From Chloroflexaceae bacterium (GTDB taxonomy: Bacteria > Chloroflexota > Chloroflexia > Chloroflexales > Chloroflexaceae), in the NCBI GenBank assembly GCA_012031225.1, contig JAAUTZ010000032.1, forward strand, positions 1-37,428: 37,428 nt of DNA. The letters are read 5' to 3'. A program made the translations under genes and the position numbers. The notes under the pieces are model-generated. The model worked only from the letters and a program-made list of their open reading frames with translations. It did no database searches and was not told where the DNA came from. Below, piece by piece: positions 20,301 through 27,075 of this stretch. Position 1 is the stretch's first letter; every line of letters starts with the position of its first letter.

Positions 20301-21248
20301 CTATTGTACCATGTTGAGCAGCAGCCAACTCATCATAATCACGAGCACGAGGATCAGCATAATCACGAGGGCGGGCGAGATCGCGGCTGATGACGCGGAT
20401 GCTAATGGGGGGGCATAGCCCGGATCGCTGGTGCGGACAAGCTCGCGTAGATCAATCCCCAGATAGCTACTGTAGCGGTGCAGCACGCCGCGTAGCTCTG
20501 GGCGCGGGATGTAGCTGAAGTGCCCCCGTTCGAGGGCTTGCAGAAACTCCCAGCGCACCCCGCTCTCGCGCTCAGCATCATACAGCGAAAGCCCTAACGC
20601 CCGCCGCGTCTCTGCCAGCCGCCGCCCAAGTGTAGCATACGTCAGCGGATTGGGCACGGGATGGATCGGCTCTGGGGTATGTTCAGGCGGCTCTGCGGGT
20701 GCGGTGGGCGGAGACTGGGGGGCAGGGCTGATCGGGCTAGGCTCTGGCCCACGCTCTGGGCTGTAGCGCGGCAGCGGCGCATAGCGGACGCTCGCTGGAT
20801 TGGCAACAACGGCACTCGCACCATGCCCACCCGCCAAGCCCACAACGCCGTGCGCGGGGGTCATCGCTGGCACAGGCTCGCTGCTGCGGCTGCGGCGCAA
20901 GACCGCCTCGATCCGGGCTAAGAGCTGCACAAGGCTGTAGGGCTTGGCGATGTAATCATCCGCGCCCGTCTTTAGCCCCGTCACAATATCCAGATCAGCC
21001 GACTTTGCGGTAAGCATCACAATAGGTACAGCGGAGAACTGCCGCATTTGGTGGCACACTTCCCACCCGCTCATATCGGGCATCATCACATCCAACAGCA
21101 CGAGGTCCGGCTGATCGAGCAGCAGCCGCTCCAATGCCGGCTGCCCCTGTGCGTAGCTGGTAACGGTGTAGCCGGCTCCACTGAGCTGGTAGGTGAGCAG
21201 CTGCCGGATCAGGGCTTCATCATCTACAATCATAATGCGATATGCCAT
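20301..21248 (-). CDS. Response regulator with RodZ-like HTH and C-terminal membrane anchor
   Basis: Residues 3-120 form a full receiver domain: acidic pocket D9/D10/E11, phospho-acceptor Asp53 (LLDVMMPDMSG), Thr80 and Lys102 (AKPYS). A Pro-rich linker (about 121-200) follows. Residues 206-271 form a RodZ/HTH_25-type helix-turn-helix: LGRRLAETRRALGLSLYDAE, RESGVRWEFLQALERGHFSY, then PRPELRGVLHRYSSYLGID. The protein ends with one strongly hydrophobic helix (about 291-312) and three residues after it, so it is a tail-anchored protein with everything else in the cytoplasm. RodZ normally has the same HTH followed by a membrane helix, but no receiver. It starts five bases after the stop of the HEAT NTPase gene, with RBS AGAGGAG inside that gene, so the two are surely one unit. 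Target DNA or protein is unknown. Confidence 0.9.
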   Translation of the reverse strand: MAYRIMIVDDEALIRQLLTYQLSGAGYTVTSYAQGQPALERLLLDQPDLVLLDVMMPDMSGWEVCHQMRQFSAVPIVMLTAKSADLDIVTGLKTGADDYIAKPYSLVQLLARIEAVLRRSRSSEPVPAMTPAHGVVGLAGGHGASAVVANPASVRYAPLPRYSPERGPEPSPISPAPQSPPTAPAEPPEHTPEPIHPVPNPLTYATLGRRLAETRRALGLSLYDAERESGVRWEFLQALERGHFSYIPRPELRGVLHRYSSYLGIDLRELVRTSDPGYAPPLASASSAAISPALVIMLILVLVIMMSWLLLNMVQ

Positions 21249-21253
21249 ACACG

Positions 21254-24200
21254 TTACTCCTCTGATAGCGGGCTTGCTGTTGGGGCTAGCAGTTCAGGTT
21301 GTTGATCGTTTTGCTGATCGCTCGTCTGCCCCGCGTCCGAGACCGGCGGCGGGGGAGCAAAGATCAGCTCGAGCAGGGCCCGTTGCACCTGATCCAACTG
21401 GGCGGGGGCGGCGTGCGGATCAGCACTCAGTTCAGTCAGGATCAGGGCGGCAGGGTCAGCCAAGCCCCGCGCTACCGCCCGTGCTGCGAGGGCCGCAAGG
21501 CAATGGCGGCGCAGGCGCATGGGGGTGTGCGTGGCGACAGCACACTGGTACAGCAAGTGCGTCGTCTGGGGGTGGGTCGAGGCAATCAACAGATCCGCGA
21601 CAACTAGCCGCAGATGCTGGTCGTCGCGGTCATCGAGCAGCACCGCATGCATCCTATCATGACTGATCGGGTAGGGGCTGAGGGCGTGCGCTGCCCGCAG
21701 CCGCAGCGCAAGGGGCGCACTACGCTCGGTGAGCAGGCGTACAATCAGTGGATCGGTGGGATTGGCGTGCAGCGCGAGATCGAATGCCTGAAGTTGCAGC
21801 GATAGCACCCCGCTCTCTAGGTACGTCCGCAGCAAGCTGGCATACTCCGCACCGCGCAAGTGGATCAGCGTCGCCACAGCTTGCAGGCGGATGATCGGCT
21901 CAAGGCGGTGCTGTTGGGCAACATTCAGCATAATCGGTACGGCACTATCATCCTCCAGCAGAGCTAGCCCCTGCATCGCCGCAGTAGCGACCTGTGGGTG
22001 GCTGTGTTGGGCATAGTGCAGCAACACCGCTAGCGATTCGCGGTTGCGCTGGCGGCTGAGGGTTTGCAGCACGCCGGTGAGCAACTCAACTGGCAGGCGT
22101 TCGCCGCGCACCAGATCACGGAGCCACTGGCGCATCTGCACACGCAGATTAGCAGGCAGAGCCGCCGCCGCCGCCCCGCGCAGGCTGTCGGGAGCATTCT
22201 CGTCGCTAATAATGTGCAGCAATGAGGATTCGGTGGCGGGATCGGCGAGTGCGCCTAGTGCCAGCACCGCCTGCATCCGCAGGTAGGCCTCGCCGTCGGG
22301 TTGCTCGGCGAGGCGGCGGAGGGTGGGCAGTGCGCTCAGTTCGCCCGCTTCGCCGAGAGCCACGGCGATCCGCCCGCGCACAAACGGATCAACGCTGCGA
22401 TCTTCAAGCCAACTAAGTAGGACGGCGTTGTATCCACCGGCATTGCTCAGGAGTTCGATGATCTGCCAGCGCAGCTGCGGCGCGGTATGTGGCGAGTGGA
22501 GCAACGGCTCATATGCAAGGTGCAATGGGTAGCCGTGATCAAGCTGGGCCAGCTGGGCCAGCTGCTGCACCGCCGCCAGCTGGGTTGGGTTGCTCTGGGC
22601 AAGTTCGAGCAACAGCTCGCGGATGGCGGGCAGCAGGGCTGCATTGCGCTGGGCAAGCGTACCGAGTGCGGCAATCCCAGCGGCGTGGATGAGCTGCACT
22701 TGCTGCGCGACAAAATCATCCAAGCTAGAGGGCAGATCGGCATCGGTGCTACCCCGATCCCACAGCACTGCGAGCTGCACCTGCGTCTCGGTGGGCTGTT
22801 CTAGCGTGGGCCAGCGAGCCACAGGGGTATCCTCCAAATCGGCAACCCGCGTCTGCCAATAGGCCCGAATGGCGGGTGCAAGCTCGGCGCGTAGCACCAC
22901 GCGGATCATCTGCACACAGCTTGCCGAGCCAATTGCGCCGAGTGTGTGAAGCGCACTGCTCAAGATCAGCCAATTGCCCGGCTCGCGCTGCATCACGTCG
23001 CGCAGTGTAGCAAGCACCTGCATCCGCACATACGGTAGCTGCCCTAGCCTACCGAGCGCATCTAGCCCGATTTGGCGCACCAGCAATGCCTCGCGGCGGT
23101 TGCCTACCAAGCGGCAGACATCCGCCGTTGCCATTGCCACTTGCTCCATTCCGATCAGGCGCGTGGCTGCGGCAACGACCACATCAGGAGCCTGATCTAC
23201 AATCATGATGTGTTGCAGTGCAGCGTGGCGGGCGGCAGTGTGGGCAGAGGGCTGGGCTAGGAAGCGCACTGCCCGCAAGCGCAACAGCACGGGCAGGTGC
23301 GGGCTGAGGGCGCAGCGCAGCAGCAGCGCAAGCGCGGCGGGCGTATCCCAATGGGCAACCTGTGCGAGGGCATCGTGTTGCACCTCGCTGGCACAATCTG
23401 GATTGCAGAGCAACTCATCAAGCAAGCGCAATGCCTGTTGCGGCTCTTGGGTTGCCAGTGCCGCCAGTGCCGCTCGGCGCACAGAGGCGCGGCTATCGCT
23501 ACAGGCCCGGCTCAATACCGTGTGAGCCTGCGCCGCCGGTGCTGCCCCTTCCGGCAACAATGCCAGTGCAACCGTCCGCAGGCTCTCCGGCAGGCTATCG
23601 CTACTGAGCAGCATATGGGCGACATAGGTGCGGCGCGTCTGGTCTACGTGGGGATCAAACAATGCCGCCGCCCAGTTGTCAGTTTCAGGCGTGGTCAAAA
23701 GCTGCCGCTCGACGGCACCTGCGAGTGCCAGCAGATAGAAGCGCATAGCGCGTGCCAACGCATCAGGGGCGGGTGTATTGATCAGCAAGGCGGGAGCGTA
23801 GGAGCCATCCAAGCGGAGCAGCCCATCGGTTGCGGCCCATCGGGTCGCCGGACGTTGCCCTATGTGATCTACCAGTTGGAGCAGGCGGAGACTACCAATC
23901 AGGGCCGCGTTGGTGGTGAGCAAGCGGGATACACGCTCATCGCTCAGAGCGTTGCCCGCCAAGCGCAGGAGATCGGGTAGCTCATTGAGGAGAGCCGTGC
24001 GGTAATCGTGCAGGGGCGGCGGGGCGGTGGGTTGGTCGCTCAGGCGTTCAAGCACGCGGATCGCCCACATCGGGGCACTGCGCGGGTTCTCACGCAGGCA
24101 GACGGCCAGCGTCTGCGGATCGTTGGCTTCCCACAGCGTCGCATAGAGCGGAGCCGGGTTCGCCAGTGTGCCGCGCAGCATGCGGGCTACCTCGTGCCGG

Positions 24201-25189
24201 GCCGGGGCTTCAAGTGCAACCAGTGGCGTGATATTGCCCGTCTGGGTGATGGCTTGGGCTTGTGTGGCGCAGTGCAACATCTGCCGCCCAATCAAGAACC
24301 AGCCATCCGGCGTAGGTGTATCGAGGTCAAACGGGACTGCCATTGGCAGCGTGATCTGCTGTGCCTGTAGAATCTCTAGCACCCGTGCATACAGCTGCTT
24401 GGGCGCACTCGGCAAGCGGTGGCGGGGATAGGTTAGGGCGAGCAGGGCAAGCTCGAAGATCCGCTGGCGCACACTCCCCAATTCGGGCTGCTTGCCGAGC
24501 TGCTGCATAATCGCGGCGGTGTTGTGCTGCGGCAAGAGCGTATCCAGCCATAGCCGCACCAGCGTGGTATCGGGCGGCACAAGGCGTACCTGCGCGTAGC
24601 CCTCCCAGTTCGGCGTATCGTGTTGCACGGTGATGACCCCGTGCGTGGCGGGCAACAGGCGCGGCAGGCGGTGCAATAGCTCTTGCCACACCTCACGGCG
24701 GGCAGCGGGCAACTCTTCCCAGCCATCAATCAAGAGCAGCAATTCGCCGGTGGTGCTGGTCGGGATAGCGAGGGCCGCATCGAGGTGGTGTTGCCCTAAC
24801 ACCTGACTGAGCAGTTCACGCGGCGATTGTTCGGGGCGATCTATCAGGGCAAGCGGCACAATCAGCACCGGCGCGGTGCGGCTGCTCTGGAGCCATTGCC
24901 ATGCGAGCTGGATCAGCGCGAGGCTCCGCCCACTGCCGGGCGTGCCTGCCAGCTGCACCCACTGCCCCGCCGATAGCAAGGTGGAGGCATAGGCTGGGCG
25001 CGGCTCAAACGGGAGCGGCACACTGAGCAGCGCAGGCAGCAGCCGCAACGCCGGTTCATGGCGAATCTGCTCACGGACGTGCCCACGCACACGCTGGCTG
25101 GTGCGCCCGTGTTGCAGGCGATCCGTGATCCGTTTAGTGGGCAGGAGTTTTCCGAGCATTCTTTCTCTCACAATCGTATCACGCAGCAT
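21254..25189 (-). CDS. NACHT/STAND-like P-loop NTPase with a long HEAT-repeat array
   Basis: A 1311-residue protein. The N-terminal part is a P-loop NTPase. Walker A reads GTPGSGRS (82-89), with Arg88 where Lys is usual. Walker B reads LLLLIDGWEEL (150-160), close to the NACHT form DGxDE. From about residue 500 to 1270 the sequence is a run of roughly 30-residue helical repeats of HEAT/PBS-lyase type, for example VRRAALAALATQEPQQALRL, LRMQAVLALGALADPATESS and VATAAMQGLALLEDDSAVPI. No signal peptide or membrane helix is seen. STAND NTPases act as signal switches and scaffolds, some in defence; the function here is unknown. The ATG at 25189 is given; the ATG at 25159 has the better RBS (GAGAGAAAGA). 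The gene is coupled to the downstream response regulator. Confidence 0.82.
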   Translation of the reverse strand: MLRDTIVRERMLGKLLPTKRITDRLQHGRTSQRVRGHVREQIRHEPALRLLPALLSVPLPFEPRPAYASTLLSAGQWVQLAGTPGSGRSLALIQLAWQWLQSSRTAPVLIVPLALIDRPEQSPRELLSQVLGQHHLDAALAIPTSTTGELLLLIDGWEELPAARREVWQELLHRLPRLLPATHGVITVQHDTPNWEGYAQVRLVPPDTTLVRLWLDTLLPQHNTAAIMQQLGKQPELGSVRQRIFELALLALTYPRHRLPSAPKQLYARVLEILQAQQITLPMAVPFDLDTPTPDGWFLIGRQMLHCATQAQAITQTGNITPLVALEAPARHEVARMLRGTLANPAPLYATLWEANDPQTLAVCLRENPRSAPMWAIRVLERLSDQPTAPPPLHDYRTALLNELPDLLRLAGNALSDERVSRLLTTNAALIGSLRLLQLVDHIGQRPATRWAATDGLLRLDGSYAPALLINTPAPDALARAMRFYLLALAGAVERQLLTTPETDNWAAALFDPHVDQTRRTYVAHMLLSSDSLPESLRTVALALLPEGAAPAAQAHTVLSRACSDSRASVRRAALAALATQEPQQALRLLDELLCNPDCASEVQHDALAQVAHWDTPAALALLLRCALSPHLPVLLRLRAVRFLAQPSAHTAARHAALQHIMIVDQAPDVVVAAATRLIGMEQVAMATADVCRLVGNRREALLVRQIGLDALGRLGQLPYVRMQVLATLRDVMQREPGNWLILSSALHTLGAIGSASCVQMIRVVLRAELAPAIRAYWQTRVADLEDTPVARWPTLEQPTETQVQLAVLWDRGSTDADLPSSLDDFVAQQVQLIHAAGIAALGTLAQRNAALLPAIRELLLELAQSNPTQLAAVQQLAQLAQLDHGYPLHLAYEPLLHSPHTAPQLRWQIIELLSNAGGYNAVLLSWLEDRSVDPFVRGRIAVALGEAGELSALPTLRRLAEQPDGEAYLRMQAVLALGALADPATESSLLHIISDENAPDSLRGAAAAALPANLRVQMRQWLRDLVRGERLPVELLTGVLQTLSRQRNRESLAVLLHYAQHSHPQVATAAMQGLALLEDDSAVPIMLNVAQQHRLEPIIRLQAVATLIHLRGAEYASLLRTYLESGVLSLQLQAFDLALHANPTDPLIVRLLTERSAPLALRLRAAHALSPYPISHDRMHAVLLDDRDDQHLRLVVADLLIASTHPQTTHLLYQCAVATHTPMRLRRHCLAALAARAVARGLADPAALILTELSADPHAAPAQLDQVQRALLELIFAPPPPVSDAGQTSDQQNDQQPELLAPTASPLSEE

Positions 25190-25322
25190 TTACGCTACTT
25201 TGGGCACGAGCCACTCGCACCACGCATCTCTATAGTAAAACGGAAGCAACCCCACTCACAAGGGGAGAACATTACAGTTGGGTTGCCACCGTCCAATGCG
25301 TGACTCGCTGCCGCTCACGCGC

Positions 25323-25458: not shown

Positions 25459-27075
25459 ATGCGCTTCCTACTCGATCAGCAATCCTATGATGAAATGCGC
25501 GAGATGCCCCGCCATCCCGCCGACTGCTACGTGCGCGGGACAGAATACCTGCACCATATGTACCTCGATGGCGTAAAGTATGTGGTGGCGCGGGCGCTGA
25601 TGGAGTCGATCAAAAAGGCGACGCTTGCGAACGATGCCGATGCCCTGCTCCACCTCAACTTTCACAAAGAGGATTTGGATCGGTTGATTGCCGATGCCCG
25701 TTCGCAAGGAACCGATGTGAAAACGTTGCGGATCCTCGGCGATCCGCCACCGACTGAGGAGCAATCCCGCCCGAAGCTAGAAAACCGCTTCACCCCACCT
25801 ATGCCGCGCACGATTGCTGAGACGGGGATGAATCGCACCTTCCTCGCAGAGCATTTCCTCCGTATTCTCTACAACAAGAGCCGCACCAGTGGCTCCGAAA
25901 TGGCAGAAGAGATGCGCCTGTTTTATGCTATCGTGGATGAACTGATCCAAGAGTTGCGCGGGCAGGATTACATTGATATTGCTGGCTCGCGGGGCTATGG
26001 TGACATCAACTACGAATACGTGCTGACCCCGCGTGGCTTCCAAGCCGCCAATGATGCGATGCTGAAGACGCAGTATGTTGGGCCTGTGCCCGTGCCGCTC
26101 TCGACATGGATTGCCTCAGTCAAGCAACAAACGATCAAGAATGTCGTCGTGACGCGGCACAACATCCGCGAAGCCTTCGACGGCTTGGTGATTGACGAGT
26201 CGATCTTGAACTGGGTTGGCCCCGCAGTCAACTCTGGCGCATCGGTGATGCTGTATGGCTACCCCGGCAATGGCAAAACCAGCATCGCCGAGCGGATTAC
26301 GCTGCTGATGGGCGATGCGATTTTCATTCCGAATACGATTGATGCGGACGGGGCAATCATTAAGATGTTCGACTCGATTGTGCATGAGGAACCGAAAGAC
26401 GCACTGCCCGATGAGTTTGAGTATGATCGCCGCTGGATGCGGATCAAACGCCCAGTCGTGATTACCGGTGGGGAGCTGACCCTCGAACAACTCAACCTCG
26501 TCTATAACGACACCTCGAAAGTCTACGAAGCCCCGTTCCAAATGAAAGCGAATGGGGGCATCTTCCTGATTGACGACTTCGGGCGGCAGCAAGTGCGCGT
26601 CTTCGACTTGCTCAATCGCTGGATCATTCCCCTTGAGAAACGCTATGACTTCCTCAATACGGTGACAGGTCAGAAGATTCAGATCCCCTTCGATCAGCTC
26701 ATCATCTTCTCCACCAACCTGCACCCATCCGATCTCGGCGATGATGCGCTCCTGCGGCGGATCAAGTTCAAATTCGAGATCATTGATCCCGATGAAGACC
26801 AGTGGCGGGCGATCTGGCGCATTATGTGCAAAGTTCGCAATGTGCCCTACGATGATCGCGGGCTAGATTATCTGGTTGCCAAGTGGTTTGTACCGGAACA
26901 TCGCCCCTTTCGCATGTGCCAGCCGCGTGACATTATTGATCAGATGATCTCGATTGCCAAGTACAACATGGAGAAAGTTGCGCTTACGCCGGATCTGCTT
27001 GATGCCGCGTGCGCCACCTACTTTACGAGTGCCGCAAAGAAGGACTTCGGCGCGAAGGTACGCCTCGATCTGTAA
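25459..27075 (+). CDS. AAA ATPase of MoxR-like appearance, function unknown
   Basis: A 538-residue cytoplasmic protein. Residues 1-250 form a mostly helical N-terminal region without a recognised domain. The ATPase core has Walker A GYPGNGKT (267-274), Walker B IFLIDDFGR (368-376), a sensor-like stretch LIIFSTNLHPSDL and DALLRRIKFKFEI with a likely Arg finger. The C-terminal helical lid follows. A very good RBS (AGGAGGGTG) precedes the ATG. I recall similar proteins in Chloroflexota and Planctomycetes annotated as chaperone-type ATPases associated with Flp-pilus genes, but no pilus gene is in this window. It probably stands alone with its own promoter; the next gene, pckA, has a separate one. 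Confidence 0.85.
   Translation: MRFLLDQQSYDEMREMPRHPADCYVRGTEYLHHMYLDGVKYVVARALMESIKKATLANDADALLHLNFHKEDLDRLIADARSQGTDVKTLRILGDPPPTEEQSRPKLENRFTPPMPRTIAETGMNRTFLAEHFLRILYNKSRTSGSEMAEEMRLFYAIVDELIQELRGQDYIDIAGSRGYGDINYEYVLTPRGFQAANDAMLKTQYVGPVPVPLSTWIASVKQQTIKNVVVTRHNIREAFDGLVIDESILNWVGPAVNSGASVMLYGYPGNGKTSIAERITLLMGDAIFIPNTIDADGAIIKMFDSIVHEEPKDALPDEFEYDRRWMRIKRPVVITGGELTLEQLNLVYNDTSKVYEAPFQMKANGGIFLIDDFGRQQVRVFDLLNRWIIPLEKRYDFLNTVTGQKIQIPFDQLIIFSTNLHPSDLGDDALLRRIKFKFEIIDPDEDQWRAIWRIMCKVRNVPYDDRGLDYLVAKWFVPEHRPFRMCQPRDIIDQMISIAKYNMEKVALTPDLLDAACATYFTSAAKKDFGAKVRLDL

Follow-up and report, generated by a model that had tools for sequence, protein, structure and literature searches.

The window, a 37,428-nucleotide stretch of a Chloroflexaceae bacterium contig (JAAUTZ010000032.1), carries two adjoining genes on the minus strand. 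The downstream gene (20301..21248) encodes a tail-anchored response regulator of 315 residues, delimited by its reading frame, Pfam and an AlphaFold2 model; the upstream gene (21254..25189), 5 bp away, encodes a protein of 1311 residues in which a NACHT-like P-loop (Walker A GTPGSGRS) is followed by HEAT repeats. The regulator's open reading frame had been picked out in an earlier note written from the sequence alone; it exists at that place, and its strand is minus (21248 to 20301).

Anatomy of the Regulator

The N-terminal part of the regulator (residues 1-121; 20886..21248, minus strand) is a complete receiver of OmpR/PhoB type; a complete receiver, with Asp53, Thr80 and Lys102, had been proposed in the earlier note. 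Pfam finds Response_reg at residues 5-114 (1.8e-28), the best NCBIfam matches are OmpR/PhoB-family regulators, and the domain has the acidic pocket, the phospho-accepting Asp, the Thr/Ser and the Lys, together with an OmpR-type α4-β5-α5 sequence; Asp10, Asp53, Thr80 and Lys102 are invariant across 26 aligned orthologues. A C-terminal winged helix (Trans_reg_C) is absent: Pfam places HTH_25 there instead, and the modelled HTH is all-helical. The AlphaFold2 model, built with 26 orthologues, contains a full, confident receiver followed by a disordered segment at about 125-200, in keeping with the long Pro-rich linker noticed earlier (residues 122-204; 20637..20885, minus strand; low pLDDT, dN/dS 0.375), although Pro is enriched in its second half only. 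Between the window and its sister species, the receiver has a dN/dS of 0.06, the linker of 0.38 and the HTH of 0.17, all on small numbers; judged from these substitutions, the receiver is under strong purifying selection.

The HTH_25 domain (residues 205-273; 20430..20636, minus strand) is matched by Pfam at residues 210-269, scoring 43.5 bits where the cut-off is 24.6, and AlphaFold2 predicts a five-helix HTH at 201-273 (pLDDT mostly 88-96), the segment (206-271) in which the earlier note had expected a RodZ-like domain. Arg232-Trp233, Gln237 and Glu240 are invariant, and an R-W-[DE]-x-x-Q patch on the domain does not vary within the regulator family. Because a search with the full-length model listed receiver matches only, the HTH was modelled alone; in structure it is closest to the MreB-bound RodZ (2wus_S; Z 11.3, 1.8 Å over 70 residues), in a tie with HipB (Z 11.0) and followed by YmfM (10.3), with SinR and ClgR also among the top matches.

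The protein ends in a membrane helix (residues 292-315; 20304..20375, minus strand), modelled as a single helix at 292-314, and as in RodZ HTH_25 is followed by just one such helix. The expectation that this helix would stay hydrophobic in homologues is borne out in 28 of 28 orthologues (mean Kyte-Doolittle 2.3-3.6), in all of which 0-5 residues lie beyond the 19-residue window of peak hydrophobicity. The 24-residue anchor is 100% identical to that of the sister species (dN = 0), and the 18-residue stretch just before it is 50% identical, with a dN/dS of 1.4 that also rests on small numbers. The domain order and the membrane anchor are not a matter of chance. The literature searched held no precedent for this order, as the earlier note had surmised: no work on membrane-bound or tail-anchored response regulators was found, and among papers naming RodZ and a receiver domain no such fusion appears in titles and abstracts.

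The RodZ-Type Domain and MreB

The RodZ HTH binds MreB and itself, not DNA (PMC6946637), so that a protein-binding role for a domain of this type has precedent. MreB binding requires F60 and Y64 in E. coli RodZ and Y66 and F70 in the Chlamydia protein (PMC4047632), and E. coli F60A has also been reported on in this respect (PMC6946637). The earlier note had suggested a phospho-switch placed in front of a RodZ-like link to MreB; the switch, the RodZ-type HTH and the tail anchor are supported by the analysis, and the MreB link is not. A RodZ-like MreB binder, through which a two-component signal would act on the cytoskeleton, could draw on the MreB-bound RodZ as top structural match and on the two MreBs encoded in the genome, but the positions aligned with the contact aromatics are Leu/Arg/Gln and Val/Ala/Ser/Thr in 24 of 24 orthologues aligned and, in an alignment read by eye, non-aromatic in the remaining four as well; when the family profile is aligned to S. 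aureus YmfM, the segment that bears them is one residue shorter; an ordinary RodZ (84.6 bits) is encoded separately in the genome; and the regulator gene comes after the HEAT/NACHT gene, not mreB. With the contact aromatics replaced and the genome's own RodZ at hand, the MreB link was rejected as the main reading, and we hold it to be very improbable.

Distribution in Chloroflexota

A survey across Chloroflexota of the kind proposed in the earlier note shows that 44 of 82 Chloroflexales genomes encode a regulator orthologue built in this domain order, all scoring at least 88 bits with a profile that covers the HTH and the anchor. The next Chloroflexales match is a second copy at 78.6 bits, and the class made up of RodZ and related proteins reaches no more than 65 bits. 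Among about 360 genomes outside Chloroflexales, taken from a phylum-wide sample of 400, no orthologue was found (top match 64.1 bits), and a receiver is absent from each of some 20 HTH_25 loci inspected there; the receiver-HTH_25-TM order is therefore confined to Chloroflexales within the sample. In a named collection, 29 regulator loci come from Oscillochloris, Candidatus Viridilinea mediisalina, Roseiflexus, Herpetosiphon aurantiacus DSM 785 and other Chloroflexales/Chloroflexi bins.

In L147 (genome G009) the regulator frame ends after the receiver, at 147 aa, and remnants of the HTH follow downstream of the break, reflecting either decay or a sequencing error, and an extra copy (L156:2544-3383, G011:C215) continues for about 25 residues past the membrane helix, with no HEAT/NACHT gene found beside it.

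A second family that combines a receiver, HTH_25 and a TM helix is also spread through the order and is represented in the same genome (G000:C98:19372-20304; L040, L078) and elsewhere (L161-L164, L176, L177, L181-L184, L186-L188). Its phospho-Asp is mostly Glu, many members have a Pro/Thr-rich extracytoplasmic tail, a divergent mnmG-like gene adjoins 8 of 15 loci, and no conserved HEAT/NACHT neighbour was seen at its loci. Both this family and the linked NACHT/HEAT gene lie beyond what the earlier note had covered.

The HEAT/NACHT Partner

The upstream gene belongs to a family of 1000-1300 aa HEAT-repeat proteins with a degenerate NACHT-like N-terminus, a family conserved mainly in its HEAT part. 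HEAT_2 is matched in 16 of 16 partner proteins scanned and NACHT in four (E<0.01); the protein of the window reaches 24.7 bits for NACHT, just below the Pfam cut-off of 26.7. The Walker A lysine is Arg in every partner protein with a readable motif, including those from genomes that have the HEAT protein alone, and the Roseiflexus partners (984-1005 aa) are missing the NACHT half. From its sequence, the NTPase looks degenerate.

The pairing of regulator and HEAT/NACHT gene is borne out by their neighbourhoods. At 37 of 37 loci clustered, the HEAT/NACHT gene lies upstream on the same strand, the next commonest neighbour family appearing at 6, and chance synteny is ruled out by the scrambling of other neighbours while this one stays constant. 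Seven loci have a 4-bp overlap between the two genes and three a 38-bp overlap; elsewhere the gap is mostly below 100 bp and in a few cases 200-425 bp, the values for L067 and L054 deriving from a deleted or fused locus and from an uncertain ORF end, respectively. In a few draft genomes (e.g., G069), the genes sit on different contigs and their spacing is invisible. Since the HEAT/NACHT gene lies directly upstream wherever this can be read, the two proteins probably work as a pair. No conserved histidine kinase gene occurs among the neighbourhoods clustered.

Across the 82 Chloroflexales genomes, 44 have both proteins, 14 the HEAT protein alone, none the regulator alone and 24 neither (Fisher 3e-11, a value that ignores kinship). 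The HEAT-only genomes comprise eleven Chloroflexus-like and g4 genomes, one with a broken regulator (G009) and two (G024, G031) whose contig breaks off at the HEAT gene or within it, where the regulator may merely be absent from the assembly. Its presence without the regulator in the Chloroflexus-like and g4 genomes implies that the HEAT protein has an independent function.

Phage defence is a known role of bacterial NACHT proteins (PMC12169576), and a partner with a NACHT-like P-loop and HEAT repeats raises the prospect of an NLR-like conflict module in which the regulator would be a membrane effector or a brake. Against this, no effector domain was found, all readable NACHT-bearing members have the Walker arginine, Roseiflexus dispenses with the NACHT half, PADLOC matches are weak only, and regulator and HEAT protein diverge in parallel (rho 0.84), as under vertical descent; a role in anti-phage conflict is accordingly improbable.

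In G032 (L034/L067), the NACHT and first HEAT part are joined in frame to the last HTH part and the membrane helix, either by a deletion that fused both genes or through an assembly error. In the window, a divergent AAA protein (25459-27075, plus strand) has weak similarity to the anti-phage ATPase IetA; a PEPCK gene follows it, and the two are therefore probably not a defence pair.

The Promoter of the Operon

Upstream of the operon (25258..25288, minus strand), a motif matrix locates a diverged 11-bp direct repeat, TGGCAACCCAACTGTAATG, then N8 and a -35-like CTTGT; a -10-like TACTAT, placed by consensus resemblance only, lies downstream (25232..25237, minus strand). The family consensus is TGTCA-N6-TGTAAT-N8-CTTG, and the element can be read as an 11-bp direct repeat preceding a putative σ70-like promoter. 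One 8-base gapped word of the motif occurs in 13 of 24 loci, against a shuffle maximum of 6. The matrix scores at least 19 bits in 29 loci, including the window, and below 0 in nine HEAT-only Chloroflexus-like/g4 loci, a separation that is partly circular because the same 29 loci built the matrix. Two regulator-bearing loci (L151, L152) have no motif and scores are low at the Roseiflexus-like loci; of the 29 motif loci, two (L147, L149) come from genomes whose assemblies contain no intact regulator gene.

With one mismatch allowed, the pattern occurs in 67 of the 82 genomes, the backward control pattern giving fewer matches. It also stands before a hexapeptide-transferase/response-regulator operon, before secreted-protein genes and, in Chloroflexus-like genomes, before the gene of a BlaI/MecI-type repressor some 3 kb away from rodZ; together with the present operon, these sites have the appearance of a Chloroflexales regulon. 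Direct repeats of 11 bp are of the kind bound by OmpR/PhoB winged helices, and since the motif is kept in genomes without the regulator, its reader is probably an order-wide OmpR/MtrA-type regulator. Autoregulation of the operon, with the regulator's own HTH reading this shared motif, is disfavoured by the survival of the motif where the regulator gene is missing.

These observations bear on a membrane-bound transcription factor in the manner of CadC or ToxR, in which phosphorylation would pair the receivers and the HTH would bind promoter DNA from the membrane. The Xre-type fold, with HipB, SinR and ClgR among the top structural matches, the invariant positions along the predicted recognition helix (233-240) and the occurrence of the motif with the regulator, set against its absence from all nine HEAT-only Chloroflexus-like/g4 loci, are in line with such a protein, but the motif is of the winged-helix kind, persists before other genes without the regulator and probably has another reader, and the RodZ HTH does not bind DNA (PMC6946637). 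We consider a transcription factor of this sort unlikely, if less so than the phage-defence module.

A Proposed Two-Gene Membrane Module

Given the observed anatomy, the conserved phosphorylation site and anchor, the operon and the co-occurrence, we tentatively favour, at slightly less than even confidence, a two-gene module in which the tail-anchored regulator would be an adaptor that, under phospho-control, positions the co-encoded HEAT/NACHT scaffold or switches it. An unlinked histidine kinase would phosphorylate Asp53, upon which the OmpR-type receivers would pair via the α4-β5-α5 face; the last helix would hold the regulator at the inner membrane; the RodZ-type HTH, the receiver or both could dock the HEAT-repeat protein; and phosphorylation would set the site of scaffold assembly or turn the scaffold's activity at the membrane on or off. 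The linkage at 37 of 37 loci, the co-occurrence, the strong purifying selection on the receiver with its invariant catalytic residues, the precedent of protein binding by the RodZ HTH and the invariant R-W-[DE]-x-x-Q patch count in favour of the adaptor, whereas the HEAT protein without a regulator in Chloroflexus-like/g4 genomes, the likeness of the HTH fold to the DNA-binding HipB, SinR and ClgR, and the weak NACHT match in the partner family (4/16) count against it.

Response regulators are normally soluble, and their outputs are DNA-binding or enzymatic. A bolder version of the adaptor, possible though doubtful, is that a two-component signal directly controls an NLR/STAND-like scaffold: the regulator would recruit or gate the HEAT/NACHT protein at the membrane, with the RodZ-type HTH repurposed as a docking module. 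If true, this would be a non-transcriptional output from a membrane-pinned response regulator with an intact phosphorylation site, and it would put a RodZ-type fold and a STAND-like protein under two-component control.

Comparison With Known Systems

The receiver has the sequence, fold (~35-49% identity to solved members) and catalytic residues of the OmpR/PhoB regulators PhoB, MtrA, YycF and KdpE, but their winged-helix output is replaced by HTH_25 and a membrane anchor. An HTH_25 fold followed by a membrane helix is shared with RodZ (E. coli, T. maritima 2wus, Chlamydia CT009) and YmfM; by contrast, the regulator has a receiver in front, lacks the MreB-contact aromatics and coexists with a separate RodZ. 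The periplasmic C-terminal domain of E. coli RodZ is absent, with 0-5 residues after the helix, as it is from Chlamydia RodZ.

CadC and ToxR are membrane-integrated one-component regulators with a cytoplasmic HTH on a single membrane helix. The regulator's cytoplasmic HTH is held at the membrane likewise, yet its input is a cytoplasmic phosphorylation receiver, with nothing outside to sense. The partner, finally, resembles bNACHT/STAND proteins in joining a NACHT-like P-loop to a repeat array, and departs from them in its Walker Lys-to-Arg change, the lack of an effector domain, a dispensable NACHT half and, in most carriers, its pairing with a response regulator.
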